Shown here: positions 12,126-40,657 of the stretch, piece by piece
Layout of the letters: each line of letters begins with the position of its first letter
How positions within the stretch are numbered: position 1 is the stretch's first letter
From: Lachnospiraceae bacterium
GTDB lineage: Bacteria > Bacillota > Clostridia > Lachnospirales > Lachnospiraceae
DNA: 63,665 nt
Direction: 5' to 3'
Assembly: GCA_017546025.1 (NCBI GenBank)
Contig: JAFYYS010000013.1
Coordinates: forward strand, 1 to 63,665
Position numbers and translations under genes: made by a program
Notes under the pieces: generated by a model
Told to the model about the DNA's origin: nothing
Databases searched by the model: none
What the model saw: the letters and a program-made list of their open reading frames with translations, nothing else

Positions 12126-12148
12126 GCCGCAAGTTGCGGCCGTTTTTT
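12126..12148 (+). terminator. Hairpin plus T-run between glnA and the ANTAR gene
   Basis: GCCGCAA-G-TTGCGGC is followed on the plus strand by CGTTTTTT. No plus-strand gene ends here, so it could stop antisense transcription. On the minus strand it lies between glnA and the ANTAR gene without a U-run, where it may mark a processing or stabilising hairpin. Confidence 0.45.
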
Positions 12149-13352: not shown

Positions 13353-13403
13353 GGCATCCTCCCTGCTCTCGCCCGCTATACGTGCAGGCCTTTATAAACC
13401 CCT

Positions 13404-13429
13404 ATACCGGCGGATAAGGCCGCCGGTAT
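13404..13429 (-). other. Intercistronic hairpin upstream of glnA
   Basis: ATACCGGCGG and CCGCCGGTAT form a perfect 10-bp stem with a six-base loop (CCTTAT on the mRNA strand). The loop lacks the A1/G4 ANTAR signature and no U-run follows. It probably stabilises or separates the upstream glutamate synthase message from glnA. Confidence 0.55.
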
Positions 13430-13433
13430 TCAC

Positions 13434-15379: not shown

Positions 15380-15438
15380 CGCTTCCTCCTTGTCTCCGAC
15401 ACATTCGGCCGGCACGGGATACTCCGTTTTGCCCCGCT

Positions 15439-15867
15439 TTATCTCTCTTCGTACACGATCGCATGGTTCGGGCAGCCCTTAACGCAGGCCGGCTCGCCGC
15501 AGGAATTCGTGAGACACAGCTCACATTTCTGCATGATGCCGTCCTCTGCGGGCGTCAGCGCGCCGTACGGACATACCAGAACACAGGTGAGGCAGCCGAC
15601 ACATTTTTCACGGTTGATTCTCACGACGCCGTCTTCCTTGCGGATGGCGCCTGCGATGCAGCTTTTCACGCACATCGGGTCTTCGCAGTGTCTGCAGGAT
15701 ACGGCAAATGTGATTTTATCGTCGCCTTCAACATGAATGCGGGGATAAATCTTACGTCCCTTCAGCGCGTCCGACATTTCTTTGATCCCGGAATTGGCCC
15801 ACGCGCAGTTATATTCGCACAAATGGCAGCCGAGGCACCATTCTTCGTTGACATAGACTCGTTTCAT
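15439..15867 (-). CDS. Polyferredoxin-type 4Fe-4S protein of the glutamate synthase operon
   Basis: This 142-residue electron carrier has four cysteine clusters: CLGCHLCEYNC, CRHCEDPMCVKSC, CVGCLTCVLVCP and CELC...CGEPACVKGC, enough for about four 4Fe-4S clusters in the manner of HycB/DmsB-like subunits. It lies between the FMN subunit and the NAD(P)H oxidoreductase genes, so it probably shuttles electrons between them. GGAGAG precedes the ATG. Spacing to the upstream gene is three bases. Confidence 0.92.
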   Translation of the reverse strand: MKRVYVNEEWCLGCHLCEYNCAWANSGIKEMSDALKGRKIYPRIHVEGDDKITFAVSCRHCEDPMCVKSCIAGAIRKEDGVVRINREKCVGCLTCVLVCPYGALTPAEDGIMQKCELCLTNSCGEPACVKGCPNHAIVYEER

Positions 15868-15870
15868 AGT

Positions 15871-17376
15871 TTACTCTCCTGCGTGTGAAATACCGAGAAT
15901 CTCAAGCTCCTTCGAGGTCAGTCCGACGCCGCGAAGCATCAGGCGGTTGCCTCTTAAGGCTTCAATCGAGTTGATGCCCATGCCGCCGAGGATTTCCATG
16001 ATCTCATGTCTCCAGGCGGTCATCAGGTTCACAAGTCTCTGGCTTCCGATATCCGGATTCAGTCTCTTTACGAGATCCGGACGCTGGGTCGCGATGCCCC
16101 AGTTGCATTTGCCGCTCTGGCATGTACGGCACAGATGACAGCCGAGCGCCAAAAGGGCCGCCGTAGCAACGTAGCAGGCGTCCGCGCCGAGTGCGATGGC
16201 CTTTACGACATCTGCCGCGCTTCGGATGGAACCGCCGACCACAAGGGATACGTTTCCGCGGATTCCTTCGTCACGAAGCCGCTGGTCAACTGCCGCGAGC
16301 GCAAGCTCAATCGGGATGCCGACGTTATCGCGGATTCGGGTCGGTGCAGCACCGGTACCGCCGCGGAAACCGTCGATCGCAATGATGTCGGCGCCGCTTC
16401 GTGCGATGCCGCTTGCGATTGCCGCAATGTTATGAACCGCTGCCACCTTAACGATGACGGGTTTCTTGTAATTCGTTGCTTCCTTTAAGGAGAAAACAAG
16501 CTGTCTCAGGTCTTCGATGGAATAAATGTCATGGTGCGGTGCGGGGGAAATGGCATCCGAACCCTCGGGAATCATACGGGTTCTCGATACATCGCCGACG
16601 ATCTTCGCACCGGGCAGATGACCGCCGATGCCGGGCTTAGCACCCTGGCCCATCTTGATTTCCACTGCTGCGCCGGCTTCGAGATACTGCTCATGCACGC
16701 CGAAACGGCCGCTCGCTACCTGGACAATCGTATTCGGTCCGTATACGTAGAAATCCTCGTGCAGGCCGCCCTCACCGGTGTTATACAGGATGCCGAGTTC
16801 CGTAGCTGCTCTTGCAAGCGAAGCATGGGCATTGTAGCTGATGGAGCCGTAGCTCATGGCCGAAAACATCACGGGCATCGAGAGCTCAATCTGCGGCTCT
16901 AACTTACAGGTAAGCTTGCCGTTTTCGTCCCGTTCAACCTTCTGCGGCTTCTTGCCGAGGAATACCTTTGTCTCCATCGGCTCACGAAGCGGATCAATCG
17001 GCGGGTTGGTAACCTGCGAAGCATTGATCAGAATCTTGTCCCAATAAACCGGAAGCGGTTTCGGGTTACCCATGGAGCTTAAAAGAACGCCGCCGCTGTT
17101 AGCCTGTTTGTAAATCTCTTTGATGGTATCGTCCTGCCAATTGGCATTTTCCCTAAGCCTGCAGTCGCTCTTCACAATCTTGAGCGCTCTCGTCGGACAC
17201 AGCGATACGCAGCGCTGGCAATTGACGCATTTGGTTTCGTCACTGATCATCACGCCGCGTTCCGGGCTGTAGGAATGCACCTCGTTCGCGCACTGTCTCT
17301 CGCAGACACGGCAGGCGATGCAGCGGTTATCATTTCTGACGACTTCGAATTCCGGATAGATAAAATCGACTCCCAT
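15871..17376 (-). CDS. Glutamate synthase FMN/Fe-S subunit (GltB2-type)
   Basis: This 501-residue protein is the synthase core that reductively transfers ammonia to 2-oxoglutarate. Residues 1-~75 hold two 4Fe-4S motifs (CIACRVCERQC, CVNCQRCVSLCP). The rest is the FMN-binding TIM-barrel of the GltS family (PVMFSAMSYGSIS; GQGAKPGIGGHLPG; IAIDGFRGGTGAAP). A further cysteine group, GCHLCRTCQSGKC, matches the 3Fe-4S site. The amidotransferase and GXGXG parts are separate genes in this operon. The stop lies three bases before the ferredoxin gene. Confidence 0.94.
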   Translation of the reverse strand: MGVDFIYPEFEVVRNDNRCIACRVCERQCANEVHSYSPERGVMISDETKCVNCQRCVSLCPTRALKIVKSDCRLRENANWQDDTIKEIYKQANSGGVLLSSMGNPKPLPVYWDKILINASQVTNPPIDPLREPMETKVFLGKKPQKVERDENGKLTCKLEPQIELSMPVMFSAMSYGSISYNAHASLARAATELGILYNTGEGGLHEDFYVYGPNTIVQVASGRFGVHEQYLEAGAAVEIKMGQGAKPGIGGHLPGAKIVGDVSRTRMIPEGSDAISPAPHHDIYSIEDLRQLVFSLKEATNYKKPVIVKVAAVHNIAAIASGIARSGADIIAIDGFRGGTGAAPTRIRDNVGIPIELALAAVDQRLRDEGIRGNVSLVVGGSIRSAADVVKAIALGADACYVATAALLALGCHLCRTCQSGKCNWGIATQRPDLVKRLNPDIGSQRLVNLMTAWRHEIMEILGGMGINSIEALRGNRLMLRGVGLTSKELEILGISHAGE

Positions 17377-17377
17377 A

Positions 17378-18478
17378 CTAGTACGCCCCTTCCTTGACCT
17401 TTACAATGACGGGCTCTCCGCCGGCCGGTGCCCAGATGTTCTTAACATCGGGCTCCATCACGCGGATGGCTGCTTCTTCACTGGCGATGTAAACCTTATC
17501 GGCCTTCTCACCGACCACCATGGACCGAAGCTTCAGCCGGTCATTCAGTGCCATCAGGCCTCCGTCAAAGCCGAGCACGATGGAGAACGGCCCGGTCACG
17601 AGAAGGCTCGGGAAAATGGTACGCAGGTATTGCAGCTTCTGCTTTTCATAAAGATCGCTCTTGCCCTCGATGGTGCTCCAGAAAGGCGCTGCGATGACAG
17701 CGGCTGCTTCCTCAAGCGTCAGGCCCTGCACACGGAGGAGGTAATCGAGAATGTAGGTGATGACCTCGGTATCGGTCTGCAGGTTGCATTTATAACCGAA
17801 CATTTCGATGAAACGGCGGTTGGCGTCATAGGAGGAAATCTCGCCGTTATGAACAACCGAATAATCCAGAAGTGTGAAGGGATGTGCGCCGCCCCACCAG
17901 CCGGGGGTGTTGGTCGGATAACGGCCGTGCGCGGTCCAGCAGTAACCCTCGTACTCGTCAAGGCGGTAGAATCTTCCGACGTCCTCGGGGAAGCCGACTG
18001 CCTTGAAGGTACCCATATTCTTGCCGCTCGAGAAGACGTACGCGCCCTTCATGTCGGTGTTGATCTTCATAACCGTCCGCGCAACGAACTCCTTCTCGTC
18101 AAGCTGCAGGTCGCGAAGCACCGAAGGAAGCGGCGTTACGAAGTAGCGCCAGATAATCGGCTCATCCGTGATTTCGGGAATCTTTCTGGTCGGGATCAGT
18201 TCGCCCTTAACGACCTCGAAGTGCTCCTTTAGGAACGCCTCGCAGGCCTTTCTGGTATCCCGGCAGTCAAAGAACAGATGAAATGCATAGTAATCCTTGT
18301 ACTCCGGATAAATGCCGTAGCCTGCAAAACCGCCGCCCAGTCCGTTCGAACGGTCGTGCATCGGCTTCATCGATTCCATGATGGCCGCACCGGTCATCTT
18401 CTTCCCTTCCTTTGATATCACGGCGGCTATCGCACATCCGGACGGAATCCGGACTTCGCCTTCTCGCATCCCTGCCAT
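17378..18478 (-). CDS. Glutamate synthase class II glutamine amidotransferase subunit (GltB1-type)
   Basis: This 366-residue Ntn-type amidotransferase releases ammonia from glutamine for the synthase. The probable nucleophile is Cys15 (RIPSGCAIAAV); about 14 residues would have to be removed to expose it. Other family features are GRYPTNTPGWWGGAHPF and LDYSVVHNGEISSYDANRR, shown in two parts. I chose the ATG at 18478 because AGGAGG lies eight bases upstream; the frame is open for seven codons further, but those lie in the terminator-RBS interval. It is the first gene of the operon and is preceded by an ANTAR-type attenuator. Confidence 0.92.
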   Translation of the reverse strand: MAGMREGEVRIPSGCAIAAVISKEGKKMTGAAIMESMKPMHDRSNGLGGGFAGYGIYPEYKDYYAFHLFFDCRDTRKACEAFLKEHFEVVKGELIPTRKIPEITDEPIIWRYFVTPLPSVLRDLQLDEKEFVARTVMKINTDMKGAYVFSSGKNMGTFKAVGFPEDVGRFYRLDEYEGYCWTAHGRYPTNTPGWWGGAHPFTLLDYSVVHNGEISSYDANRRFIEMFGYKCNLQTDTEVITYILDYLLRVQGLTLEEAAAVIAAPFWSTIEGKSDLYEKQKLQYLRTIFPSLLVTGPFSIVLGFDGGLMALNDRLKLRSMVVGEKADKVYIASEEAAIRVMEPDVKNIWAPAGGEPVIVKVKEGAY

Positions 18479-18496: not shown

Positions 18497-18549
18497 CAAA
18501 AAAAGAAGGCGTCACTTCCGCACCGATTCGGTACGAAAATGAACGCCTT
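18497..18549 (-). terminator. Leader terminator (attenuator) of the glutamate synthase operon
   Basis: On the mRNA strand AAGGCGT pairs with ACGCCTT, the stem continues CATTTTCG with CGGAAGTG and then TACC with GGTG (one bulged U), and CTTTTTTTG follows. This near-perfect ~19-bp hairpin with U7 ends just before the AGGAGG of the first gene, so transcription would stop unless it is prevented from folding. Confidence 0.88.
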
Positions 18550-18557
18550 TGCTCATT
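18538..18557 (-). promoter_or_regulatory. ANTAR-type hexaloop hairpin overlapping the attenuator
   Basis: AAUGAGC-AAAGGC-GUUCAUU: a 7-bp stem with a six-base loop that has A at position 1 and G at position 4, the residues reported as invariant in ANTAR targets. Its loop and 3' arm are the 5' arm of the terminator, so the two folds exclude each other. Binding by the ANTAR protein encoded at the operon's end would let transcription continue. Confidence 0.78.
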
Positions 18558-18564
18558 TACCCGC

Positions 18565-18593
18565 ATTGTAATGTCTTGTTTTGCATTTGTCAA
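18565..18593 (-). promoter_or_regulatory. Possible own promoter of the glutamate synthase operon
   Basis: TTGACA (18593-18588), 17 bp, TACAAT (18570-18565) is near consensus. The -35 element contains the TGA stop of the amidase gene. If this promoter is used, the transcript starts almost at the hexaloop; if transcription comes from the amidase promoter, a further upstream stem (18554-18573) would also be transcribed. Confidence 0.6.
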
Positions 18594-25199: not shown

Positions 25200-26429
25200 C
25201 TATCCCGGAAACGTTGCCGCTATGATGAATGCCCGCCCGTCAGGCGAGGCAGCGGCAATCTTCCCGCCGTGATCCTCCACGATGGCCTGCGCCGTCGAGA
25301 GCCCGATTCCGTGTCCGCCCGTTTCGGAATTCCGCGATGCGTCCGGACGGTAGAACCGCTCGAATACATGCTTTAAAGAATCCTGGGAAATCGGTACCGC
25401 ACTTATGTTGCCGACGGTCAGCATGATCTTCCGCCCCTGCTTTTCTAGGAACAGATCAATCTGGCTTCCCTGGTCGGAATATTTCATCGCATTATCAAGA
25501 AGCAAAGAAACAAGCTTCGAAATCGCCTTGTCGTTTCCGTTTAGCGTAAGCATCGGCTGAATGTTGCAGTTCAGTTCCTTGCCCTGTGCCTGCGCAAGCG
25601 TCTTAAACTGCTCCGCCGCCTCCGTCACGATTTCGGAAACGGGGAAATCCACCATCGTCAGCCTGCTCTGCGACTCTTCCATCTTCGAAAGATAAACAAG
25701 GTCGTTCGTAAGCCCCGTAAGCCGTTCCGCCTGCTGCCTGATGTCCTTAAGACTCTCGTTTTCATCTCCGAGCTCCATCTGCAGCAGATCGACATTGGCC
25801 GAAATGATTGTAAGCGGCGTTTTGATTTCATGTCCGGCGTCGGTGATGAACCGCTTCTGCCGCTCCTGGCTCTCCGCCACCGGACGGACAAAGCGGCCTG
25901 CCACAATGCAGATAACCAATGCCGTGATTACATACCCGATTAACGAAATGAGGACGCTGAACTTCACGAAATCATGGAAAATGCCAAGCTTCCGTCCGCA
26001 ATCCAGAAGAATGATTCTCGTATTGCTGCCCTCTGCGACCTTAAGATACCGGAAGTCTCCGACGAAACCCGTGTCCTGATTCGCTTCATAGGCTTCAAAC
26101 GCATAATCCACCGCCGTAGCCTGGTCAATCGTAATCCGGTTCAGGTCGGTGTAAACGGTTGTCTGTTTTTCATCAAAAACAACCGTGAAATACCGGCTCT
26201 CATACGGCGTTTCAGGCGACATGTCCTTCGGAAGCCGCATCGGTCTCGGCGCGCCGTCAAAGCCCGGGAATGTTCCCTTATTCTCCGACAGAAGTTCGAG
26301 CGTGGAATCCGCTTCCTTCACAACCGAGCGGTAATTGAGCAGATTCATGCCGAGAACAATGATTGCCAGAAGCACGAACAGAGCCGTCAGTGCCAGCGCA
26401 ATGAATTTTCTCTTCAGTTTGCGAATCAT
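25200..26429 (-). CDS. Sensor histidine kinase
   Basis: This 409-residue membrane kinase has two helices (about 10-32 and 157-179) enclosing a ~125-residue extracytoplasmic sensor, then a short cytoplasmic linker, the phosphoacceptor His200 (FITDAGHEIKTPLTII), and an ATPase domain with N box (LLLDNAMKYS), and G boxes (HGIGLSTAQAIV). The DAGHEIKTP form is typical of OmpR-family partners. It overlaps the response regulator gene by ATGA. Location next to htrA and the shared promoter boxes suggest an envelope-stress role like CiaH, but overall similarity to CiaH was not tested. Confidence 0.93.
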   Translation of the reverse strand: MIRKLKRKFIALALTALFVLLAIIVLGMNLLNYRSVVKEADSTLELLSENKGTFPGFDGAPRPMRLPKDMSPETPYESRYFTVVFDEKQTTVYTDLNRITIDQATAVDYAFEAYEANQDTGFVGDFRYLKVAEGSNTRIILLDCGRKLGIFHDFVKFSVLISLIGYVITALVICIVAGRFVRPVAESQERQKRFITDAGHEIKTPLTIISANVDLLQMELGDENESLKDIRQQAERLTGLTNDLVYLSKMEESQSRLTMVDFPVSEIVTEAAEQFKTLAQAQGKELNCNIQPMLTLNGNDKAISKLVSLLLDNAMKYSDQGSQIDLFLEKQGRKIMLTVGNISAVPISQDSLKHVFERFYRPDASRNSETGGHGIGLSTAQAIVEDHGGKIAAASPDGRAFIIAATFPG

Positions 26430-27097
26430 GCCTTGTCCTCCAAAGAGTAGCCTGCGTTTCTCGAGGCTTTAATCTGAATGTTCGCCTGCAGGGCGTCAAG
26501 CTTCTTACGAAGATACGAAATATATACCCAGACGACGTTCACCTCAACGTCGGTATCGTAGCCCCAGATTTTCTCCATGAACCGCTCGGTCGGAATGACG
26601 TGATGCGGGTTCGACATGAAGAATTCCATCATCTGGTATTCCTTATTGGCAAGACGGAAGCTGCCGTTCGCGGAGGAAAGCTCGAACGTGGAACGGTCCA
26701 GTGTCACATTTCCCATCCGCAGTTTCGTATCCGCAGCCGCCTGGCTCCTCGTGATGGCACGGACACGCGCCAGGAGCTCCTTCGTATCGAACGGCTTTGC
26801 CAGATAATCGTTGGCGCCGGAATCGAGCCCGAGCACCTTGTCCTCGACCTCCGATTTGGCCGTTAACATCAGAATCGGAATCCGGTTTCCGGCCTCGCGG
26901 ACCTTCTTCAAAACGGTAATCCCGTCCATTTTCGGCATCATGATGTCGAGAATCGCCGCATCGTAATTCGACGCCTGCAAATACTCGAGTGCATCCTCCC
27001 CGTTGTAGACCGGGTCCACCGAATAATTGTTTTTTTCAAAAATCGTAACCAGAACGCGCGACAGCGCTTTTTCATCTTCCGCAAGCAGAATTCTCAT
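26426..27097 (-). CDS. OmpR-family response regulator
   Basis: This is a 223-residue regulator. The receiver has acidic residues at 7-9 (AEDE), phosphoacceptor Asp51 (AAILDIMMPKMDG) and conserved Lys (LAKPF). The C-terminal winged helix binds DNA (MEKIWGYDTDVEVNVVWVYI). The ATG at 27097 is chosen because AGGAGG lies eight bases upstream and MRILLAEDE is the normal family start. It is first in its operon with the kinase, and its own promoter carries the direct repeat TTTAAA-N5-ATTAAG, so it is probably autoregulated. Confidence 0.94.
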   Translation of the reverse strand: MRILLAEDEKALSRVLVTIFEKNNYSVDPVYNGEDALEYLQASNYDAAILDIMMPKMDGITVLKKVREAGNRIPILMLTAKSEVEDKVLGLDSGANDYLAKPFDTKELLARVRAITRSQAAADTKLRMGNVTLDRSTFELSSANGSFRLANKEYQMMEFFMSNPHHVIPTERFMEKIWGYDTDVEVNVVWVYISYLRKKLDALQANIQIKASRNAGYSLEDKA

Positions 27098-27131
27098 ATT
27101 CCGTACCTCCTGTACCACCTGTGCTGCCATT

Positions 27132-27255: not shown

Positions 27256-27284
27256 TTGACAATCCGGCGCGGCGGGTGTATAAA
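27256..27284 (+). promoter_or_regulatory. Promoter of the glnN-amt operon
   Basis: Consensus TTGACA (27256-27261), 17 bp, TATAAA (27279-27284). The expected start near 27291 puts the first hexaloop hairpin at the very 5' end of the transcript. Confidence 0.8.
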
Positions 27285-27293
27285 TGGCACATG

Positions 27294-27311
27294 AAAGGCA
27301 ACGGCGTCTTT
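27294..27311 (+). promoter_or_regulatory. ANTAR-type hexaloop hairpin 1 in glnN leader
   Basis: AAAGGC-AACGGC-GUCUUU: six-base stem with loop A1, G4. Its 3' arm is also the 5' arm of the terminator at 27304, so the folds compete. Confidence 0.78.
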
Positions 27312-27342
27312 GAGTTACACACTCAGAGGCGCTTTCTCTTTT
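27304..27342 (+). terminator. Leader terminator 1 (attenuator) of glnN
   Basis: GCGTCTTTGAGT and ACTCAGAGGCGC form a 12-bp stem (G-U pairs included) with loop TACAC, followed by TTTCTCTTTT. Confidence 0.8.
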
Positions 27343-27381
27343 ATGAAAAGTAAATAAACCATATACCAGTTTTCGGACTAT

Positions 27382-27401
27382 GAAAGGCAATGGCGTCTTT
27401 C
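27382..27401 (+). promoter_or_regulatory. ANTAR-type hexaloop hairpin 2 in glnN leader
   Basis: GAAAGGC-AAUGGC-GUCUUUC: seven-base stem with loop A1, G4. Thirteen of the first fourteen bases match hairpin 1, indicating duplication. Its 3' arm overlaps the second terminator. Confidence 0.8.
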
Positions 27402-27434
27402 GTGCTTTACGGCATGAGAGGCGCCTTCTTTTTT
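27392..27434 (+). terminator. Leader terminator 2 (attenuator) of glnN
   Basis: GGCGTCTTTCGTGC pairs along 14 bp with GCATGAGAGGCGCC, followed by TTCTTTTTT. It ends 26 bases before the glnN start. Confidence 0.85.
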
Positions 27435-27459
27435 CCCGGAAACCGAAAGGAGACACAGA

Positions 27460-29562
27460 ATGGAAACGAAAAAAGTATCGGATTATTTCGGATGTCAGGT
27501 GTTTGACGACAGAGTTATGAAGGCAACGCTTTCCGCAAAGGTTTATGCCTCTCTCCGCCGCACAATCGATGAGGGCGCGGAGCTTGATCCAAGCGTTGCG
27601 AACGCTGTAGCGCAGGCCATGAAGGATTGGGCGCTCAGCAAGGGAGCAACCCATTTTACCCATTGGTTCCAGCCGCTCACCGGCATCACAGCCGAGAAGC
27701 ACGACAGTTTCATTTCCCCGTCTCCGGACGGCGGCGTAATCATGGAATTCTCCGGTAAAGAGCTCATTAAGGGCGAGCCGGATGCCAGCTCCTTCCCGTC
27801 GGGCGGTCTTCGCGCCACCTTCGAGGCAAGAGGCTACACCGCATGGGACCCGACCTCCTATGCATTCATTAAAGGAAAGACCCTTTGCATTCCGACCGCG
27901 TTCTGCTCTTACGGCGGACATGCTCTTGATAAGAAGACTCCTCTTCTTCGTTCCATGGAAGCACTCAGCAAGCAGGCACTCAGAATTCTGAGACTGTTCG
28001 GCAACACGACCGCAAAACGCGTCATTTCTTCCGTAGGACCCGAGCAGGAATACTTCCTTGTAACGAAAGAAATGTACGAGAAGCGTCCCGACCTTCGTTT
28101 CACGGGCCGCACGCTCTTCGGTTCCAAGCCTCCGAAAGGACAGGAACTCGACGATCATTACTTCGGTGTCATCAAGCCCGGTGTTCAGGCTTACATGGAA
28201 GACCTGAACGAAGAGCTTTGGAAGCTCGGCATTCTTGCCAAGACCGAGCATAACGAAGTGGCTCCCGCACAGCACGAGCTCGCTCCGATTTACTCGACCA
28301 CGAACATCGCAACCGACCACAACCAGCTGACGATGGAAATCATGCAGAAGGTTGCAGCAAAGCACGGTCTCGTATGTCTGCTTCATGAGAAGCCGTTTGC
28401 AGGCGTGAACGGTTCCGGTAAGCACAACAACTGGTCCATCGCTACGGACAACGGCCAGAACCTCCTTTCTCCCGGCGATACGCCTTATGAGAATGCACAG
28501 TTCCTGTTGTTCCTGTGTGCGGTCATCAAAGCTGTTGACGATTATCAGGATCTGCTTCGTCTCTCCGTTGCCACCGCCGGTAACGACCACCGTCTCGGCG
28601 CCAACGAGGCACCGCCCGCCGTTATCTCGATGTTCCTCGGCGACGAGCTGAACGCAGTCCTTGAAGCCATCGATACCGATACGCCTTATGCCGGTGCAGA
28701 AAAGACCGTCATGAAGCTCGGTGTAGACGTTCTGCCGAAGTTCAACCGCGACACGACCGACCGTAACCGTACGTCACCGTTCGCATTTACCGGAAACAAA
28801 TTCGAATTCCGTATGCTCGGCTCTTCGAACAGCATTGCCTGTGCAAACATCATGCTGAACAGTGCCGTAGCAGAATCCCTGAAGATTTACGCCGACCGTC
28901 TTGAGGGCGCTGAGAACTTTGAGGATGCTCTTCATGCAATGATTAAGAAGACCATCAAGGATCATAAGCGCATCATCTTCAACGGCAACGGTTATGACGA
29001 TGCATGGATTAAGGAAGCAACCGAGGTCCGCGGTCTTTCGAACTACCGCACGACGGCCGACTGCATGCCTCACCTTCTGGATAAGAAGAACACCGATATG
29101 CTCATCAGCCACGGCGTATTCACGATGGAAGAACTGAAGTCCCGTGTTGACATCATGCTTGAGAACTACTGCAAGACGATTGTCATCGAGGCAAATACGA
29201 TGGTTGACATGGCCAAGACGCAGATTGCTCCGGCCGTTGACCGTTACGCTTCCGATCTTGCCAAGGACGTTGCCGCCAGAAAAGCCGTTGACGCTTCTCT
29301 TCCGTGCCGCCGCGACGGCAAGCTGATTGCCCGTCTTTCCGCACTGACCGATGAAATCGACGAACGTACGGAAGCACTGGAAAGCGCCATGGTTGCCATT
29401 AAGGAAACCGAAGGCATCATCGCTGAATCCGCTTACATCCGTGACAGTGTTCTGCCTGCCATGAGCGCACTCAGAATTGCCTGTGACGAAGCGGAAACGC
29501 TGACCGCGAAGGAATACTGGCCTTATCCTTCCTACGGCGACATCCTGTTCAGCGTAAAATAA
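27460..29562 (+). CDS. glnN: Glutamine synthetase type III
   Basis: This 700-residue enzyme is a GSIII, a dodecameric ATP-dependent glutamine synthetase unrelated in length to GlnA. Characteristic stretches are [60 protein letters not shown] and [25 protein letters not shown] precedes the ATG. It heads a plus-strand series with the ammonium channel and glutamine-using enzymes and has a leader with two attenuators of ANTAR type. Together with GlnA at 12147 the cell has two unrelated GS forms, probably under the same antiterminator. Confidence 0.96.
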
Positions 29563-29623: not shown

Positions 29624-29666
29624 CTTCACGCAGGCAGCGGTCAGAGGAACCGTATGATCCGTGAAG
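29624..29666 (+). promoter_or_regulatory. Hairpin immediately upstream of the amt ribosome site
   Basis: CTTCACG and CGTGAAG (7 bp) enclose an inner CGGT/ACCG hairpin with loop CAGAGGA. The 3' arm ends about ten bases before AAGGAGG, so it could affect amt translation. The inner loop is not a clean A1/G4 hexaloop. Confidence 0.45.
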
Positions 29667-29690
29667 AAATTCACTAAGGAGGTGTTTGCT

Positions 29691-31460
29691 ATGACATACA
29701 CCGCAATCTCCCTCACAGACGAAATCACTGAAATCGTCACAAAAGAAGCTTTTGGCATCTGGTTCTTAATCGGTGCCGCACTCGTGTTCTTCATGCAGGC
29801 CGGCTTTGCCATGGTCGAAACCGGTTTCACCCGCGCGAAAAACGCCGGTAACATCATCATGAAGAACCTCATGGACTTCTGTATCGGTACTGTCGTATTC
29901 GTACTCCTCGGCTTTTCCTTAATGATGGCTGAAGACTACGCGTTCGGCGTAATCGGAATCCCGAATCTTCAGATTTTCACGGATTTCGGCAAATTCCTTT
30001 CGGACGGCATGGCTCCCTCCTTTGTATTCAACCTTGTGTTCTGTGCAACGGCCGCTACCATCGTATCCGGTTCCATGGCAGAACGTACCAAGTTCATCTC
30101 CTATTGCATCTATTCCGGAGTTATCTCCCTTTTCGTATACCCGATCGAAGCAGGCTGGGTATGGAACAGCCAGGGCTGGCTTGTCAAGCTCGGCTTCCAT
30201 GATTTCGCCGGTTCCGCTGCGATTCACTCGGTCGGCGGCATCACCGCTTTGATCGGTGCCATTCTCGTCGGTCCGCGTCTCGGCAAATATGTCCGCGACA
30301 AGGAAGGCAAAGTGACCAAGGTAAATGCCATCCCCGGTCACGCCATTACCCTCGGCGCTTTGGGATGCTTCATCCTGTGGTTCGGCTGGTACGGCTTCAA
30401 CGGCGCAGCTGCCTGGGACGGAACTTCTCTTGCATCCATCTTCGTTACCACGACAATCGCTCCTGCGGTTGCCACCTGCACGACGCTTCTTTATACCTGG
30501 ATTAAAAACGGCAAGCCCGATGTTTCGATGTGCCTGAACGCCTCTTTGGCCGGTCTGGTCGGCATCACGGCAGGCTGTGACGCACTCGATGCACTCGGTT
30601 CAGTAATCGTCGGCATCGTATCCGGCATCCTGGTTGTCGTAGTTGTAGAAGTACTTGACCTGAAATGCCATATCGACGATCCCGTCGGTGCCGTAGGCGT
30701 TCATTTCGCAAACGGTGTCTGGGGTACGATTGCTGTAGGTCTTCTGGCTAACCCCGATGCTCCCGCCGGCTTGAAAGGTTTATTCTACACCGGTAGTCCG
30801 AAGCTTCTGGGCATCCAGTCTCTCGGCATTGCAACGATCCTTGCATGGACCGCTCTCTGCATGACGATCACATTTATCATCATTAAGAAAACCATCGGTC
30901 TTCGTGTCACGGTTGAAGAAGAAATCCGCGGTCTTGACAGCACCGAGCACGGTCTGCCGAGTTCCTACGCAGACTTCGCTCCGGCCGTTTCGGAAATGAC
31001 CTATGCATTCCCCGAGGCTGCTGAAGCAGTTGTTGTAAGCGGCGACACTCCCGTTGCCGAAGCTGTTCCGGTTAAGAAGGTTGCATCGCTTGATGACGGA
31101 ACACCGAAGTTCACCAAGATTGAAATCGTGTGCCGCGAGTCCCGCTTCGAACAGTTGAAGAGCGCGATGATGGACATCGGCATCACCGGCATGACAGTCT
31201 CCCACGTACTCGGCTGCGGCGTGCAGAAGGGTAAGCCCGAATTCTACCGTGGCGTTCCCGTTGAAGCCACTCTGCTTCCGAAGATTCAGGTCGACATCGT
31301 CGTTGTTGCGGTTCCCGTCCGTAAGGTCATCGAGACCGCCAAGAAGGTTCTATACACCGGCCATATCGGCGATGGCAAGATCTTCGTATACGATGTGGAA
31401 AATGTCATTAAAGTCCGTACGGGTGAGGAAGGCTATGACGCTCTGCAGGACGTTGAATAA
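29691..31460 (+). CDS. amt: Ammonium transporter fused to a PII signal-transduction domain
   Basis: This 589-residue membrane protein is an Amt/Rh ammonium channel with about eleven helices (residues ~15-420; AMVETGFTRAKNAGNI, FAGSAAIHSVGGITALIGA part, HFANGVWGTIAVGLL), a ~60-residue acidic linker, and a C-terminal PII domain (~475-589). The PII part keeps GITGMTVSHVLGCG, the T-loop EFYRGVPV with the Tyr that GlnD modifies in others, HIGDGKIFVYDV and RTGEEG. Fusion puts the GlnK-type gate on the channel itself. I chose the ATG at 29691, eight bases after AAGGAGG. It follows glnN and may share its transcript. Confidence 0.94.
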   Translation: MTYTAISLTDEITEIVTKEAFGIWFLIGAALVFFMQAGFAMVETGFTRAKNAGNIIMKNLMDFCIGTVVFVLLGFSLMMAEDYAFGVIGIPNLQIFTDFGKFLSDGMAPSFVFNLVFCATAATIVSGSMAERTKFISYCIYSGVISLFVYPIEAGWVWNSQGWLVKLGFHDFAGSAAIHSVGGITALIGAILVGPRLGKYVRDKEGKVTKVNAIPGHAITLGALGCFILWFGWYGFNGAAAWDGTSLASIFVTTTIAPAVATCTTLLYTWIKNGKPDVSMCLNASLAGLVGITAGCDALDALGSVIVGIVSGILVVVVVEVLDLKCHIDDPVGAVGVHFANGVWGTIAVGLLANPDAPAGLKGLFYTGSPKLLGIQSLGIATILAWTALCMTITFIIIKKTIGLRVTVEEEIRGLDSTEHGLPSSYADFAPAVSEMTYAFPEAAEAVVVSGDTPVAEAVPVKKVASLDDGTPKFTKIEIVCRESRFEQLKSAMMDIGITGMTVSHVLGCGVQKGKPEFYRGVPVEATLLPKIQVDIVVVAVPVRKVIETAKKVLYTGHIGDGKIFVYDVENVIKVRTGEEGYDALQDVE

Positions 31461-31487: not shown

Positions 31488-31531
31488 CGGCGTCATGCCG
31501 TAAAGCATGACGCCGATTACGGGTATTTTTT
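31488..31531 (+). terminator. Terminator/attenuator between amt and asnB
   Basis: CGGCGTCATGC and GCATGACGCCG form a perfect 11-bp stem (13 with AT pairs) with loop CGTAAA; TTTTTT follows ten bases later. It ends the glnN-amt unit or limits read-through into asnB. No A1/G4 hexaloop competes with it. Confidence 0.7.
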
Positions 31532-31562
31532 GAGAAATCAGAACGAATCGAGGACAAAGGAT

Positions 31563-33146
31563 ATGTGTTCCATTATCGGATATTGCGGGCCGGTTGCAGA
31601 CCCGAAAGCTTTTACGGAAGGATTTGCCCAGACGGTCTCAAGAGGTCCCGATGACACCCGGATTGTCGACACCGGAAACGGCGTGCTCGGCTTTCACCGG
31701 CTGGCCATCATGGATCTCACGAGCGGCGGAATGCAGCCGTTTGAGCTGAACGGAAGCTATGTTGTCTGCAACGGGGAGCTGTATGATTTTCCGAAGGACA
31801 GAAAGATTCTTGCGGCGAAGGGCTATCAGTTCACGAGTGACAGCGACTGCGAGATTCTGCTCCCGATGTATCACGAGTACGGAACGGACATGTTCAACAA
31901 GCTCGACGCGGAGTTTGCGTGCATCATTTACGACGGGGCAACCGGCGATTACATTGCGGCACGCGATCCGATCGGCATCCGTCCTCTGTATTACGGCTAC
32001 GATAAAAACGGCGTCATCGTATTTGCCAGCGAACCGAAGAACCTGACCGGCATGTGCGACCGGATCATGCCCTTCCCGCCCGGCTTTTACTGGAAGCGCG
32101 GCGAGTTCCACTGCTATGAGGACATTTCCACGCCGAAGACGCTTTGTAAGGACGACGCCGAAACTGCCTGCAAAAACATCCGCGAGAAGCTGATTGCGGG
32201 CGTTGAGAAACGGCTTGTGGCCGATGCCAAGGTCGGCTTCCTGCTCTCCGGCGGACTCGATTCCTCTCTTGTCTGCGGTATCGCGGCAAGAAGAAGCACC
32301 GCGCCAATCCGCACCTTTGCCATCGGCATGAGCAAGGATGCGATTGACCTCAAATATGCGAAACAGGTTGCCGAATACATCGGCGCCGACCATACCGAGG
32401 TGTTCATGACACCCGAGGAGGTCATCTCCTCTCTTCCCGAAGTCATTCACCTTTTGGGTACCTTTGATATCACGACCATCCGCGCCAGCATGGGCATGTA
32501 TCTGGTCTGCAAGGCCATTCACGAAAAGACCGATGTCCGCGTGCTTTTAACCGGTGAAATCAGCGATGAGCTGTTCGGCTACAAATATACCGATTTTGCA
32601 CCGAGCGCGGAGGCCTTCCAGAAGGAAGCGGAAAAGCGCATTCACGAGCTTCATATGTACGACGTGCTCCGCGCGGACCGCTGCATCAGCGTGAACTCCT
32701 TAGAGGCACGCGTACCGTTCGGCGATCTCGATTTCGTCCGCTACGTCATGTCGCTTGATCCGGCCATCAAGATCAACACGTACGGCATGGGCAAATACCT
32801 GCTCCGCCACGCGTTTGAAGGTCTTCATTACATTCCGGACTCGATCCTGTGGCGTGAAAAAGCCGCCTTCTCCGATGCCGTCGGTCACTCGATGGTAGAT
32901 TACCTGAAGGAGTACGCGGAGTCCTGCTACACCGATGAGGAGTTTGCGGAAAAGCGGAAGCAATATACACATGCGCAGCCGTTCACGAAGGAATCGCTTC
33001 TGTACCGCGAAATCTTCGAGCAGTACTATCCCGGCCAGGGCGACATGATTGTCGACTTCTGGATGCCGAACCGCGAATGGGAAGGCTGCAACGTGAACGA
33101 TCCGTCCGCAAGAGTGCTCTCCAACTACGGAGCAAGCGGTGTTTAA
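31563..33146 (+). CDS. asnB: Glutamine-hydrolysing asparagine synthetase B
   Basis: This 527-residue cytoplasmic enzyme makes asparagine from aspartate, ATP and glutamine. The start at 31563 places the nucleophilic Cys2 correctly (MCSIIGYCG). The amidotransferase domain continues with FHRLAIMDL and GELYDFP; the synthetase domain has the pyrophosphate loop LLSGGLDSSLV and LLTGEISDELFGYKY. Length is typical. It lies 102 bases after amt, behind a hairpin with U-run, and begins a run of four glutamine-dependent enzymes. Confidence 0.96.
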   Translation: MCSIIGYCGPVADPKAFTEGFAQTVSRGPDDTRIVDTGNGVLGFHRLAIMDLTSGGMQPFELNGSYVVCNGELYDFPKDRKILAAKGYQFTSDSDCEILLPMYHEYGTDMFNKLDAEFACIIYDGATGDYIAARDPIGIRPLYYGYDKNGVIVFASEPKNLTGMCDRIMPFPPGFYWKRGEFHCYEDISTPKTLCKDDAETACKNIREKLIAGVEKRLVADAKVGFLLSGGLDSSLVCGIAARRSTAPIRTFAIGMSKDAIDLKYAKQVAEYIGADHTEVFMTPEEVISSLPEVIHLLGTFDITTIRASMGMYLVCKAIHEKTDVRVLLTGEISDELFGYKYTDFAPSAEAFQKEAEKRIHELHMYDVLRADRCISVNSLEARVPFGDLDFVRYVMSLDPAIKINTYGMGKYLLRHAFEGLHYIPDSILWREKAAFSDAVGHSMVDYLKEYAESCYTDEEFAEKRKQYTHAQPFTKESLLYREIFEQYYPGQGDMIVDFWMPNREWEGCNVNDPSARVLSNYGASGV

Positions 33147-33155
33147 GAAGAATAA

Positions 33156-34823
<1,668 letters not shown>

Positions 34824-34865
34824 CGGCTTTTCTGCTATTATCTATGAATGTATGAGGCACTGATT

Positions 34866-36290
34866 ATGAATCGGTTATCTGACAAACTCCATGAAGAATG
34901 CGGCGTCTTCGGCGTCTACTCTCCCAACCCGGCGCCGGTCGCAGAATACTGCTACTACGGTCTCTACGCCCTGCAGCACCGCGGCCAGGAGGGTTGCGGC
35001 ATCGTGGTCAATGACGACGGTGTTTTCGTCTCCCACAAGGACACGGGACTCGTAAGCGATGTCTTCCCGCGGGAGGTGCTCGCCTCCTTCCCCGACGCCA
35101 CAATGGCGGTCGCCCATACGAGATATGCGACGACGGGCGGCTCGGGACGAAGCAATGTCCAGCCGATTGAAGTCAACCACCAGAAGGGACGCATGGCGAT
35201 TGCCCATAACGGTAACATCAGCAACGCTGCCGAACTGCGTTCGGAGCTGGAGCTTTCGGGTGCTATCTTCCATACGACAAGCGATACCGAAATCATCGCC
35301 TACCTGGTCACCAAGGAACGGCTCCGCACGCCTTCGATTGAGGAGGCCGTAAGCCGCGCCGTGGAAGCCCTGGAGGGTGCTTACTCCTTAATCATCATGT
35401 CGCCGCAAAAGCTCATCTGCGTGCGCGATCCGCACGGCTTCAGACCTCTGTGCTACGGGCAGATGCGCGACGGCACGTATATCGTTGCTTCCGAATCGTG
35501 TGCCTTGCATGCGGTCGGCGCAACCGAGGTTCGTGATGTCGAGCCGGGCGAAATGCTTGTGTTCGGCAGAACCGGCGTACAGTCAAGGAAGGAGCACTGT
35601 AACACCGAGCCGATCAGACGGTGCATTTTCGAATACATTTATTTTGCAAGACCCGATTCGGTCATCGACGGCGTGTCCGTGCATGCCTCGAGAATCCGAG
35701 CAGGCGAAATTCTCGCGCAGGCACACCCGGCCGACGCGGATATCGTCATCGGCGTTCCGGACTCCGGTCTCGACGCTGCCATCGGTTACTCGAGAGCGTC
35801 CGGAATCCCTTACGGAATCTGCTTAATCAAAAACAAATACATCGGCCGCACGTTCATCAAGCCGTCCGGCCGAATGGACGCCGTCCGCATTAAACTCGCC
35901 GCCGTTGAGGAAACGGTAAAGGGCAAAAAGATTGTTTTGATTGACGACTCCATCGTGCGCGGCACGACATGCGCACATATCGTCAGAATGCTGCGCGAAG
36001 CCGGCGCAAAAGAAATCCACATGCGTGTCACCGCCCCGCCTTTCCTGCATCCGTGCTACTACGGAACGGATGTCGATTCGGAGGAGCATCTGATTGCCTG
36101 TAAGCATACGGTAGAAGAAATCGCCGAAATGATCGGCGTTGACACACTCGGCTATCTTCCGGTCGACGAGCTTCCGGGACTTTGCGGCAATTCGGACTTC
36201 TGCTCCGCCTGCTTTGACGGCTCCTATCCTACCCCGGTTCCTTCCGACACGCGAAAGGACCGCTTTGAGCAGAAGCTCTCGGAACGCTGA
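34866..36290 (+). CDS. purF: Amidophosphoribosyltransferase
   Basis: This 474-residue enzyme commits PRPP to purine synthesis using glutamine. From the ATG at 34866 the protein has an 11-residue propeptide ending HEE and then the nucleophile Cys12 (CGVFGVYS), as in the Bacillus-type enzyme; GAGG lies eight bases upstream. The PRPP site reads IVLIDDSIVRGTT. Cysteines in CKHT and GNSDFCSACF indicate the [4Fe-4S] form. It is separated from the other purine genes, which are not in this window, and instead sits among glutamine-consuming enzymes. Confidence 0.96.
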   Translation: MNRLSDKLHEECGVFGVYSPNPAPVAEYCYYGLYALQHRGQEGCGIVVNDDGVFVSHKDTGLVSDVFPREVLASFPDATMAVAHTRYATTGGSGRSNVQPIEVNHQKGRMAIAHNGNISNAAELRSELELSGAIFHTTSDTEIIAYLVTKERLRTPSIEEAVSRAVEALEGAYSLIIMSPQKLICVRDPHGFRPLCYGQMRDGTYIVASESCALHAVGATEVRDVEPGEMLVFGRTGVQSRKEHCNTEPIRRCIFEYIYFARPDSVIDGVSVHASRIRAGEILAQAHPADADIVIGVPDSGLDAAIGYSRASGIPYGICLIKNKYIGRTFIKPSGRMDAVRIKLAAVEETVKGKKIVLIDDSIVRGTTCAHIVRMLREAGAKEIHMRVTAPPFLHPCYYGTDVDSEEHLIACKHTVEEIAEMIGVDTLGYLPVDELPGLCGNSDFCSACFDGSYPTPVPSDTRKDRFEQKLSER

Positions 36291-36363
36291 AAACCGGCCC
36301 GCGAAAAGCGCTGAACCGGCTGAAATAAAGACTTTCTGAATGCTGAAGAAAGAAGGATGAAAA

Positions 36364-37500
36364 ATGCTACGCGAATATGATCGAAAACTCATCACGGAAG
36401 ACGGTGCGGAATACCTTGGTTACGGCTTCGGTGCAAGTAAGGAAGCCGTACTGGAACTCGTGTTCAACACCTCTCCGGTCGGTTATCAGGAGATTCTCTC
36501 CGACCCTTCCTACACCGACCAGGCCGTCGTGATGACCTATCCGCTGATCGGAAATTACGGCATGTGTGCCGACGATTACGAAACCGAAACACCGACCATC
36601 GGTGCGCTTGTCGTGCGCGAATATAACGATGAACCGTCCAACTTCCGCGCAGAGGAATCGCTCGGAAGCGTCATGAAGCGTTACGGCATCCCGGGCATCA
36701 GCGGACTCGACACAAGAAAACTGAACCGCTCGATTCGCGACCTCGGCTCCAGAAAAGCCTTGATTACATCCGCTGACACGCCACTTGAAAAGGGACTTTC
36801 CATCATCAGAAGCACATCTCTTCCGAAGGATGCGGTATCCAGAGTCAGCAGCAAGGAAATCAAAACCTATACGGCTGCGGATCTCGGCGTAAAGAGCCTT
36901 CGAAACGATACCGGCGGGCTTGCGCCGAAGGTCGTGTTGATTGACTGCGGCGCAAAACAGAACATCCTCCGCTCTCTTCTTGCAAGAAGCTGCCAGGTGA
37001 CCGTCGTTCCGTGGAACACCGACAGCGAAACGATTCTTTCGATGGAACCGGACGGCGTGATGCTCTCAAACGGCCCGGGCGACCCGACCGACGTTCCGGA
37101 AACGATTGCAACCGTAAAAGCACTGATCGGAAAGCTTCCGATCTTCGGCATCTGCTTAGGGCATCAGATTCTTTCTCTTGCCTACGGCGCGAAAACGTAT
37201 AAACTCCTGTTCGGACACAGAGGCGGAAACCATCCGGTCCGCGACCTGTTGACCGGAAGAATCGAAATCACCTCGCAGAACCACTCCTACGCGGTAGATG
37301 AGGCAAGCCTTGAGGGTACCGGTCTTTCGGTCACGCACCGCAATATCCTCGACAATACCGTCGAAGGCGTTGCCTGCCTCCCGGACCTCGCTTTCAGCGT
37401 ACAGTACCACCCCGAGAGTTCTCCGGGGCCGCAGGACAGCACATACCTGTTTGACCGATTCCTTAACTACATGGAGGCGCAATATGCCGAAGCGGACTGA
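36364..37500 (+). CDS. carA: Carbamoyl-phosphate synthase small subunit
   Basis: This 378-residue glutaminase subunit supplies ammonia to CarB. The N-terminal domain reads [20 protein letters not shown] and [12 protein letters not shown]. The class I amidotransferase shows [13 protein letters not shown] with the nucleophilic Cys and [13 protein letters not shown] with His-Glu. AAGGATGAA precedes the ATG. The stop overlaps the carB start by 17 bases, indicating coupled translation. Carbamoyl phosphate serves both arginine and pyrimidine synthesis; no pathway-specific neighbours are visible. Confidence 0.96.
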
Positions 37501-40500
37501 CATCAAAAAAGTATTAATCATCGGCTCCGGACCGATTGTCATCGGCCAGGCCGCCGAGTTTGACTACGCCGGCACACAGGCATGCCTCGCGCTTAAGGAG
37601 GAGGGTTATGAGGTCATCCTCTGTAACTCAAACCCCGCGACCATCATGACCGATACGTCCATCGCCGACAAGGTTTACATGGAGCCGTTGACGCTCGAGT
37701 TCATCGCCAAGATCATCCGGTACGAAAGACCCGACGCGCTGCTTCCGGGCATCGGCGGCCAGACCGGTCTGAACCTTGCCATGCAGCTTGCCAAGAAGGG
37801 CGTTTTGGATGAGTGCCGCGTCGAGCTTTTGGGCACCGACAGCCGTTCCATTGAACGCGCTGAGGACCGTGAGCTCTTTAAGGAACTCTGCGAGGAGCTC
37901 GGCGAGCCCGTGCTTCCTTCCGACATCGCAACGACTGAGGAGGAAGGCATTCGGATTGCCGAAAAGATCGGCTATCCCGTCGTTTTAAGGCCGGCCTTTA
38001 CCTTAGGCGGAACCGGCGGCGGTTTTGCGGACAGCGAGGAGGAAATGCTTCCGCTTCTTAAAAACGGCCTGTCCCTCTCTCCTGTTCATCAGGTATTGAT
38101 TGAGAAAAGCATCAAGGGCTTCAAGGAAATCGAATATGAGGTAATCCGCGATCAGAACGATACCGCCATCACGGTTTGTAACATGGAGAACCTCGATCCG
38201 GTCGGCATCCATACCGGCGACTCGATTGTCGTATGCCCTTCCCAGACACTGACCAACAAAGAATACCATATGCTTCGGGACAGCGCGCTTCGCATCATCC
38301 GCGCGCTCAAAATCGAAGGCGGCTGCAACGTCCAGTTCGCGCTCGACCCGAACTCGTTCCAATACTATGTCATCGAGGTTAACCCGCGTGTATCGCGTTC
38401 TTCTGCCCTTGCCTCCAAGGCGAGCGGCTATCCGATTGCCAGGGTTTCCGCCAAGATCGGCATCGGCATGACGCTTGACGAAATCCGGCTTGCGAACACG
38501 CCCGCTTCGTTTGAACCGGCGCTTGACTATGTCGTAACCAAGATGCCGCGTTTCCCGTTTGACAAATTCGCGGACGCCGACAATTCCCTCTCCACCCAGA
38601 TGAAGGCTACCGGTGAGGCCATGAGTGTCGGCCGTACCTTTGAGGAAAGCCTGTTAAAGGGCATCCGTTCCCTCGAAATCGGCATCAAGCATCTTTACAT
38701 GCACAAATTCGACAACATGTCCGAGAAGGAACTGCTCTCCTACATCCACATCGGTACCGACGACCGGATTTACGCGATTGCGCAGCTGCTTCGGTTAAAC
38801 TGCGACATCGACCGCATCTTCGACGAAACGAAGATTGACCGGTTCTTCCTCAGAAAGCTTCGTAACATCATTGATATGGAGCGCGCACTGCAAAGCCGCC
38901 CCGCTGATGCGGCGGTGCTTTATGAAGCGAAACGCATGGGATTTTCCGACAGCACGATTGCGGGCTTCTGGAATCAGAAGGAAAGTGAGGTCCGCGCGCT
39001 TCGTAAGAAAGCCGGCATCGTTCCGGTTTATAAGATGATTGATACATGCGCATCCGAGTTTGCCAGCTACGTGCCGTATTTCTACTCGACCTACGAGACC
39101 GAGAACGAGTCGGTCATCTCCGACCGTAAAAAGATTATCGTACTCGGGTCCGGCCCAATCCGAATCGGTCAGGGCGTGGAATTCGATTACTCCACTGTGC
39201 ATGCTGTGAAGACCATCCGCTCTGCCGGCTATGAGGCCATCATCATCAACAATAACCCCGAGACCGTATCGACTGACTATACGTGCTCGGATAAGCTCTA
39301 TTTCGAGCCGCTGTGCACCGAGGACGTCATGAACGTCATCGAGCTCGAGCAGGCCGAGGGCGTCATTGCAACGCTCGGCGGACAGACCGCCATCAACCTT
39401 GCCGATTCGCTTGCCGCATACGGCGTCAGAATCATCGGTACCGACTGCGCCGCCATCGACCGCGCGGAGGACCGTGACCAGTTTGAGCATCTTCTCATCG
39501 AACTCGGCATCCCGCAGCCAAAAGGTCGCGCCGTCACAAGCATCGAGGAGGGTGTCGCCGCTGCAGCGGAAATCGGCTATCCGGTACTCGTCAGACCGAG
39601 TTTCGTGCTCGGCGGCCGTGCGATGCAGATTGTTTCCAAAGAGGAAACCCTTCGCGAATACCTGATGCACGCGGTCGAAATCGACAAAGACAAGCCGGTA
39701 CTCGTGGACCGTTACATCCGCGGAAAGGAAGTCGAGGTCGACGCCGTCTGTGACGGAAAGAAGGTCTTCGTTCCCGGCATCATGGAACTCGTGGAGCGGA
39801 CCGGCGTCCACTCCGGCGACTCAATCAGCGTATATCCGCCCTACACGCTTTCCGACAACGTCAAAAAGACGATTCTGCACTACGCCGAAATGCTCGGCTT
39901 AGGCATCGGAATCGTCGGGCTGTTCAACATTCAGTTCATTGTCGACTCTTCGGAAAATGTGTACATCATCGAGGTCAACCCCCGTTCCTCCAGAACGGTT
40001 CCGTTCCTCTCGAAGGCAACCGGCTACAGCCTTGCCGACATCGGAACGCTTGTCATGCTCGGACACTCCCTTGAAGAACAGGGCATCACCTGCCTGTACC
40101 CCGAAGAGAAGAAGCGCTACTACGTAAAGGTGCCTTCGTTCTCATTTTCCAAGCTTCGCGGCATGGACGCTTACCTCTCTCCCGAGATGAAGTCCACCGG
40201 TGAGGCAATCGGCTACGACAAGCTGATTCACCGTGCCGCATACAAGGCTCTGATTGCGTCCGGACTTACGCTCCGTAACTACGGAACGGTTCTTGTAAGC
40301 GTCGCCGATGAGGACAAGGAAGAGGTCGTTCCGCTGATCCGCCGCTTCTACAATATGGGCTTCAACATCGAAGCGACCACACTGACCGGCGAAGTGCTCC
40401 GCGAGCACGGCATCCGCACGAGAATCCGCCGGAAGCCGAGCGAGCACAGTGACGAGGTTCTCGACTCCATCCGCGCCGGCTACGTCAGCTACATCATCAA

Positions 40501-40657
40501 TACAAGAGCCATTCTCTCCGGCATCCATTACGGCGACGGCGTGGCCATCAGACGGTGCGCCGCCCAGCAGGGCATCGCGATGCTCACCTCGCTTGACACC
40601 GTCCGCCTGCTGCTTGATGTTCTCGAAGAAGTGACGCTCGGAATCTCGACCATCTAA
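37484..40657 (+). CDS. carB: Carbamoyl-phosphate synthase large subunit
   Basis: This 1057-residue synthetase makes carbamoyl phosphate from bicarbonate, ammonia and two ATP. The internal duplication is obvious: [19 protein letters not shown] near residue 10 and [20 protein letters not shown] near residue 560, each followed by an ATP-grasp domain. The last ~120 residues form the allosteric MGS-like domain. I chose the ATG at 37484 since GGAGG lies seven bases upstream within carA; a longer open frame upstream reads out of frame through carA. Last gene of the glutamine-use series. Confidence 0.97.

Follow-up and report, generated by a model that had tools for sequence, protein, structure and literature searches.

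The DNA analysed here, which we call the window, is a stretch of 63,665 nucleotides that makes up contig JAFYYS010000013.1 of a Lachnospiraceae genome (GCA_017546025.1). It includes glnN, the gene for a type III glutamine synthetase, and next downstream a gene for an ammonium transporter (amt) fused to a P-II domain. Divergent from glnN is a histidine kinase and response regulator gene pair (25200-27130, minus strand), and after glnN and amt comes a series of glutamine-using genes (31530-40657): asparagine synthase-like, CTP synthase, GATase/Pribosyltran (purF-like), carA and carB. The glnN leader contains two near-identical units, each a hairpin with a six-base loop that has A at position 1 and G at position 4 (an A1/G4 hexaloop), and each hairpin overlaps an intrinsic terminator of its own:

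27256-27284, plus strand: glnN promoter, read from the sequence (TTGACA 27256-27261, 17-nt spacer, TATAAA 27279-27284)
27291-27311, plus strand: unit 1, A1/G4 hexaloop hairpin overlapping its own intrinsic terminator
27294-27311, plus strand: hexaloop (antiterminator) hairpin of unit 1, AAAGGC[AACGGC]GUCUUU, from pattern, fold and covariation
27303-27343, plus strand: intrinsic terminator of unit 1, 13-bp stem (27303-27333) and then a U-rich tail, -18.6 kcal/mol
27380-27400, plus strand: unit 2, near-identical to unit 1 at a spacing of 89 nt, with its own overlapping terminator
27379-27404, plus strand: hexaloop hairpin of unit 2 in extended form (10 bp), core 27383-27400, AAAGGC[AAUGGC]GUCUUU, from pattern, scan and fold
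27392-27434, plus strand: intrinsic terminator of unit 2, 15-bp stem (27392-27425) and then a U-rich tail, -24.4 kcal/mol
27460-29562, plus strand: glnN, glutamine synthetase type III (Pfam GSIII_N, Gln-synt_C)
29661-31460, plus strand: ammonium transporter fused to a P-II domain at its C terminus (Pfam Ammonium_transp, P-II)

A preliminary description of this DNA had proposed two such hairpins before glnN, each overlapping its own terminator. Both are there, and the 3' arm of each is part of the terminator stem. The units had been placed correctly, but two boundaries have moved: hairpin 2 starts at 27383 (27379 if extended) and terminator 1 at 27303. Within the window, the 18-nt core has exactly two matches with up to three mismatches, and these are units 1 and 2; shuffled sequence gives 0.12 matches on average, and two were reached in one shuffle of 100. 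A scan of both strands for an A1/G4 hexaloop with a strong overlapping terminator likewise returns only the two glnN units. The leader as a whole folds to -61.5 kcal/mol (z -5.64), a value that none of 200 shuffles attained. Taken in isolation the hairpins are weak, -3.5 kcal/mol each and -9.7 kcal/mol for extended hairpin 2, and since the terminators are much stronger, termination should be the default. No Rfam family matched the window at gathering scores; on the leader, ctRNA_pGA1 and Scr6925 alone came up, both far under the cut-off.

Terminators by themselves are poor evidence. A simple scan finds five terminator-like sites against 4.8 in shuffles, and so we judged terminators by stem length and by comparison with relatives instead. 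Sites of this kind are common by chance in the region, as they would be if the leader held nothing but plain terminators, duplicated by accident and subject to no regulated antitermination. Both terminators lie between the promoter and the gene, however, and the hairpin that excludes each of them itself covaries across relatives, which makes chance duplication very improbable.

The relatives we compared are the best 80 of at least 588 confirmed glnN loci together with 19 loci of the genus, 98 leaders after one duplicate was removed. A scan blind to the bases of the loop found 62 hexaloop/terminator units in 46 of these unique leaders, and A1 and G4 are both present in 55 of the 62. The same scan came up empty on 294 dinucleotide shuffles of the leaders and on the leaders of 12 glnN paralogues. 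Of the seven units that depart from A1/G4, three have a loop beginning with G. Possible natural variants at A1 are seen in a genus member (L129, from genome G019), with an apparent hexaloop GAAGAC by eye, and in L084, with GACGGC. A second glnN gene of the window's own genome (L145, G000:C5:67673-68509; 67% identity over a 280-residue query) has a leader without a unit.

A broader scan, in which AA-G loops were imposed, counted 100 units in 68 of the 98 leaders: 37 leaders have one unit, 30 have two and one has three. Successive units are 58-182 nt apart, leaving out a lone spacing of 17 nt in L068, where one of the two is an artefact that lies over the -10 box. In the genus, units are present in 17 of the 19 leaders, in 14 of them as a pair. 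Of the 100 units so counted, 75 show an overlapping terminator when the settings are relaxed; some of the others may have none, or one whose stem is more broken. A few second or third units may also be transcribed separately from the first: for 6 of 32, a promoter-like site lies immediately 5' of the unit, and some pairs in our count may therefore be split between two transcripts. Both terminators were located in 18 tandem leaders (L068 being one of them), and in 14 of these the first stem is weaker than the second.

Covariation was measured on 72 aligned units, 71 of them distinct. Double changes occupy 31 stem cells against 10.5 when shuffled, and the stem covariation score is 0.324 against 0.183 when shuffled and at most 0.121 for slid structures; both sides change at four of the six pairs of the 6-bp stem. 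The preliminary description had staked its reading on conservation of the loops in glnN homologues, and in this search loop and pairing are kept while the stem bases covary. Judged by conservation and covariation in relatives, the units are real, beyond what chance would produce.

The same comparison bears on a different idea, that the leader encodes short peptides (AUGAAAGGCAACGGCGUC = MKGNGV) and works by translation-coupled attenuation. Both glnN units start with AUG and open short frames, and AUGAGCAAAGGC recurs in a further unit, before the glutamate synthase genes (see below), where 14 of 15 genus loci have it unchanged. Yet unit 1 has no ribosome-binding site before it, and what relatives keep is the loop and the pairing: ATGAAAGGC occurs in only 8 of the 100 units. 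On that count leader-peptide attenuation is disfavoured, and we give it scarcely any credence.

The units have much in common with the targets described for EutV, those of the Enterococcus faecalis eut genes (PMC3369931, PMC8934654): A1/G4 hexaloops on short stems with a conserved closing pair, a last hairpin that overlaps an intrinsic terminator, and an ANTAR response regulator to act on them (PMC3369931). Here too the hexaloop is A1/G4, a stem of at least 3 bp is kept by pairing, the last hairpin overlaps the terminator, and the genome has an ANTAR gene. The difference is one of arrangement. EutV targets as described have two hairpins, a linker of 5-12 nt and one terminator, and dual-hexaloop elements in general have two adjacent hairpins with a linker of about 2-25 nt, whereas here each terminator has one hairpin, the first lies where the RNA is predicted to begin, and the units are 89 nt apart.

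That position is itself informative. The glnN promoter is strong, as read from the sequence, and predicts a transcription start at about 27291, some three bases 5' of hairpin 1. Unit 1 therefore begins at approximately the predicted start, which would leave no room for an upstream hairpin, P1. Relatives show the same geometry. Promoters were accepted with at least 9 of 12 matches, under a rule that also requires T at position 6 of the -10 box (the window's own TATAAA fails it), and 53 of the 68 first units scanned have one. In 49 of these 53, a distance of 5-14 nt separates the first hairpin from the -10 box; a shifted control region gave 4 of 30. In single-unit leaders with a promoter, the predicted gap from start to hairpin is 2-9 nt in 29 of 32, and 14, 26 and 34 nt in the others; transcription starts throughout are predictions from promoter sequence. 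None of these 32 leaders has a P1 candidate, by a detector that had no clean positive control: only one of 14 eut regions from the family has an ANTAR gene inside it, and the leader there is roomy enough for two hairpins, but no A1/G4 P1 was detected. Given that outcome, we base the absence of P1 on the lack of room for it.

How, then, are two such widely separated hairpins read? The preliminary description had left two choices: each unit works alone, or an ANTAR dimer bridges the pair. Under the second, hairpin 1 would be P1 and hairpin 2 would be P2, and a single dimer would span the terminator between them, a stretched form of dual-hairpin recognition that agrees with the two A1/G4 hexaloops of this leader, with the two units in 14 of the 19 genus leaders, and with the requirement for both hairpins in described targets (PMC3369931). 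It fits poorly with the rest. Each unit here has its own terminator; glutamate synthase, nadE and many leaders of the family have a single unit; and EutV loses antitermination in vitro when its linker is made 20 nt longer (PMC8934654). Above all, with one unit in 37 of the 68 motif-bearing leaders, and spacings as variable as 58-182 nt in the remainder, we read the units as acting alone and regard bridging as unlikely. Action by a single hairpin has difficulties of its own, it must be said. EutV needs both hairpins in vivo (PMC3369931), and the effect of the longer linker tells against one hairpin, too; NasR is reported to bind a single hairpin less well, at ~12 uM (PMC7496416); and a terminator was found for 75, rather than all, of the 100 counted units. 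Why ANTAR antitermination needs both hairpins is described in the structural literature as an open question (PMC8934654).

The single-unit form is found in the window itself, before a second cluster of nitrogen genes that ends in the gene for the putative regulator:

18565-18593, minus strand: promoter of the glutamate synthase operon, read from the sequence (TTGACA 18593-18588, 17-nt spacer, TACAAT 18570-18565)
18537-18558, minus strand: third unit, hexaloop hairpin AAAUGAGC[AAAGGC]GUUCAUUU in the glutamate synthase leader (covariance model R1, E 0.154)
18508-18547, minus strand: intrinsic terminator overlapping the third-unit hairpin, -26.1 kcal/mol, bulged and missed by the hexaloop/terminator scans
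12147-18478, minus strand: split glutamate synthase genes and glnA (type I), upstream of the ANTAR gene and in the same direction; probably a single operon, from direction and gaps
11496-12080, minus strand: ANTAR response regulator (NitR-like by context), the only ANTAR gene found in the genome, with Asn at the phosphoacceptor position

This third unit begins 6 nt after the -10 box, and 14 of 15 genus loci share its 18-nt core without a change. Because it precedes the glutamate synthase-glnA-ANTAR operon, the regulator probably controls itself. In the window's own genome, a covariance model of the hairpin ranks the glnN units at the top (E 3e-4 and 2e-3), followed by C6:37486 (E 0.06), C21:5528 (E 0.07) and the third unit (18558-18537, minus strand, E 0.15). 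By eye, each of these last three has a promoter-like site upstream and an overlapping terminator. Of the 16 other matches listed, two are the opposite strands of the C6 and C21 matches, and the rest, by eye, are unlike leaders. The C21 match (L149, G000:C21:5528-5549, minus strand; loop AAAGGA) precedes nadE, a glutamine-dependent NAD synthetase named by eye, and its -35 region (TGTACAAC) is unlike TTGACA. The nadE unit is kept in all six orthologues of at least 74% identity and is absent from eight more distant ones. The C6 match (L148, G000:C6:37486-37507, minus strand) precedes a gene with a PPDK_N domain; in another genus of the family (L324), too, the leader of the PPDK_N-domain gene has a unit.

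The element extends well beyond this genome. In a sample of the family, 127 of 299 genomes have a covariance-model match at E <=0.02. In the 29 loci read from this search, the gene downstream is glnN in 18, amt in three, gdh in two, pyrG in two, and gltB, the PPDK_N gene and an asparagine synthase-like gene (L314, by eye) in one each; in L304 no downstream gene was assigned, although the locus includes glnN. One of the 29 (L311) belongs to the window's own genus. Promoter matches were found in 22 of the 28 loci scanned, and in 21 of the 22 the hairpin is 7-12 nt after the -10 box. This recurrence of the one-hairpin form before several nitrogen genes goes beyond anything in the preliminary description.

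The ANTAR gene is the last of its cluster, after the glutamate synthase genes and glnA, which is the gene context of NitR, the ANTAR antiterminator of the GS/GOGAT genes in Clostridium saccharobutylicum (PMC6316151). We call the regulator NitR-like on the strength of this gene context. In both, an ANTAR protein goes with genes for glutamine synthetase and for glutamate synthase (PMC6316151), but here the element also stands before a type III glnN with an amt-P-II fusion; the likeness we draw is one of regulator and genes.

Motif and regulator tend to occur together. In the 80 genomes that supplied glnN loci, an ANTAR match passes the family cut-off in 64; a further genome has a match that falls short of it, which we scored as absent. 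Counted in this way, ANTAR is present in 51 of 52 motif-bearing genomes and in 13 of 28 motif-free genomes (Fisher p 7e-8, uncorrected for kinship). The one motif-bearing genome with no ANTAR match is that of L090; two of those scored as having ANTAR and no motif (L073, L105) have A1/G4 hairpins visible by eye in their leaders. When kinship is taken into account on the glnN tree, 5.2 of seven independent pairs agree and none oppose, with a median p of 0.0625, and the link is then only suggestive.

For closer inspection we aligned the window protein with 40 hand-chosen others, mostly from motif-bearing genomes, and read the alignment by the roles assigned to residues of EutV (PMC8934654). The residues that contact the loop are largely kept: E160 and M172 in all 41 proteins and K149 in 40. 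Other contact sites have changed: His replaces Y164 in 40 of the 41 proteins, Ile replaces R142 in 30, and 31 have Cys or Gly in place of R175, and thus the binding behavior of EutV is not simply transferable to this clade. The phosphoacceptor, D54 in EutV, is mostly gone; Asn occupies the position in 31 of 41 proteins, the window's among them, and Asp in three. A receiver without this Asp probably takes its signal from a partner protein or ligand rather than from a kinase, as does AmiR (PMC4395418). AmiR and other Asp-less receivers likewise have an ANTAR output domain (PMC4395418); AmiR itself is under the control of AmiC.

Might something else bind the hairpin—another RNA-binding protein, or a small molecule—and the link to ANTAR reflect no more than shared ancestry? 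That the ANTAR protein is the ligand is our inference, its clade does not share several of the RNA-contact residues of EutV, ANTAR genes occur in 13 of 28 motif-free genomes, and one genome with the motif has none; the last two counts weigh against the one-hairpin model as well. Against a different ligand stand the A1/G4 hexaloop, which is the ANTAR signature (PMC3369931), the 51 of 52 motif genomes with ANTAR, the invariance of E160 and M172, and the presence of the element at the head of a cluster whose last gene encodes the ANTAR protein. We consider a different ligand improbable. The ANTAR-type reading of the preliminary description gains from the hexaloops, the overlapping terminators, the co-occurrence, and the same element before the ANTAR operon.

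We conclude, with a probability of roughly 0.7, that the glnN leader comprises two complete single-hairpin attenuators in series, under the control of the NitR-like ANTAR protein. In each unit the terminator would be the default state. As the leader is synthesized, the A1/G4 hexaloop hairpin would form first, using what is to become the 5' arm of the terminator. Under nitrogen limitation, presumably the signal, the ANTAR protein (11496-12080, minus strand) would bind and hold the single hairpin, the terminator would not form, and transcription would read through into glnN and amt. Since each unit would need its own hairpin alone, the polymerase would pass two gates, and read-through would be the product of both. 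A weaker first stem, as in 14 of the 18 tandems, would be in keeping with a first gate that leaks and a second that is tight. It is plausible that glnN and amt are controlled stepwise, as first proposed, or multiplicatively. The single units would put the glutamate synthase-glnA-ANTAR operon (with self-regulation), nadE and the PPDK_N gene under the same protein.

We further incline to the view that this is a separate class of ANTAR system, in which an Asp-less, NitR-like clade reads a lone hexaloop hairpin right at the start of the nascent RNA, without a recruitment hairpin, and governs a nitrogen regulon in this family and related Clostridia, with units stacked for tighter or graded control. 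Our literature search turned up no published one-hairpin ANTAR target that we recognized, although subscription papers lay mostly outside its coverage and it is weak evidence of absence. The target searches described in PMC3369931, and those in actinobacteria (PMC8164766), demanded two hairpins and may thus have passed over a class of targets in Clostridia. If our reading is right, the two-hairpin rule behind such searches is broken, and it may be that recruitment is unnecessary for a hairpin that emerges from the polymerase ahead of everything else. One RNA-level nitrogen switch would then govern both types of glutamine synthetase (I and III), glutamate synthase, the uptake of ammonium and further genes whose products use glutamine. 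Natural one-hairpin leaders, beside relatives with two or three units, make the requirement for both hairpins directly testable.

Several attenuators before one gene are not without precedent. The ANTAR regulon of Desulfotomaculum acetoxidans is described as having at least 13 attenuators in six transcription units, among them nitrogen genes (PMC3369931), and as the attenuators outnumber the transcription units, some of the latter must have several. Unlike the units here, those attenuators were found with a model that demanded two hairpins per element (PMC3369931). The longest series among the leaders we scanned is in L049 (2818-2960), where three units, 58 and 63 nt apart, precede glnN. Two glnN loci with a unit (L086, L096) come from records titled Spirochaetales and Treponema, by gene transfer or from misassigned metagenome bins.
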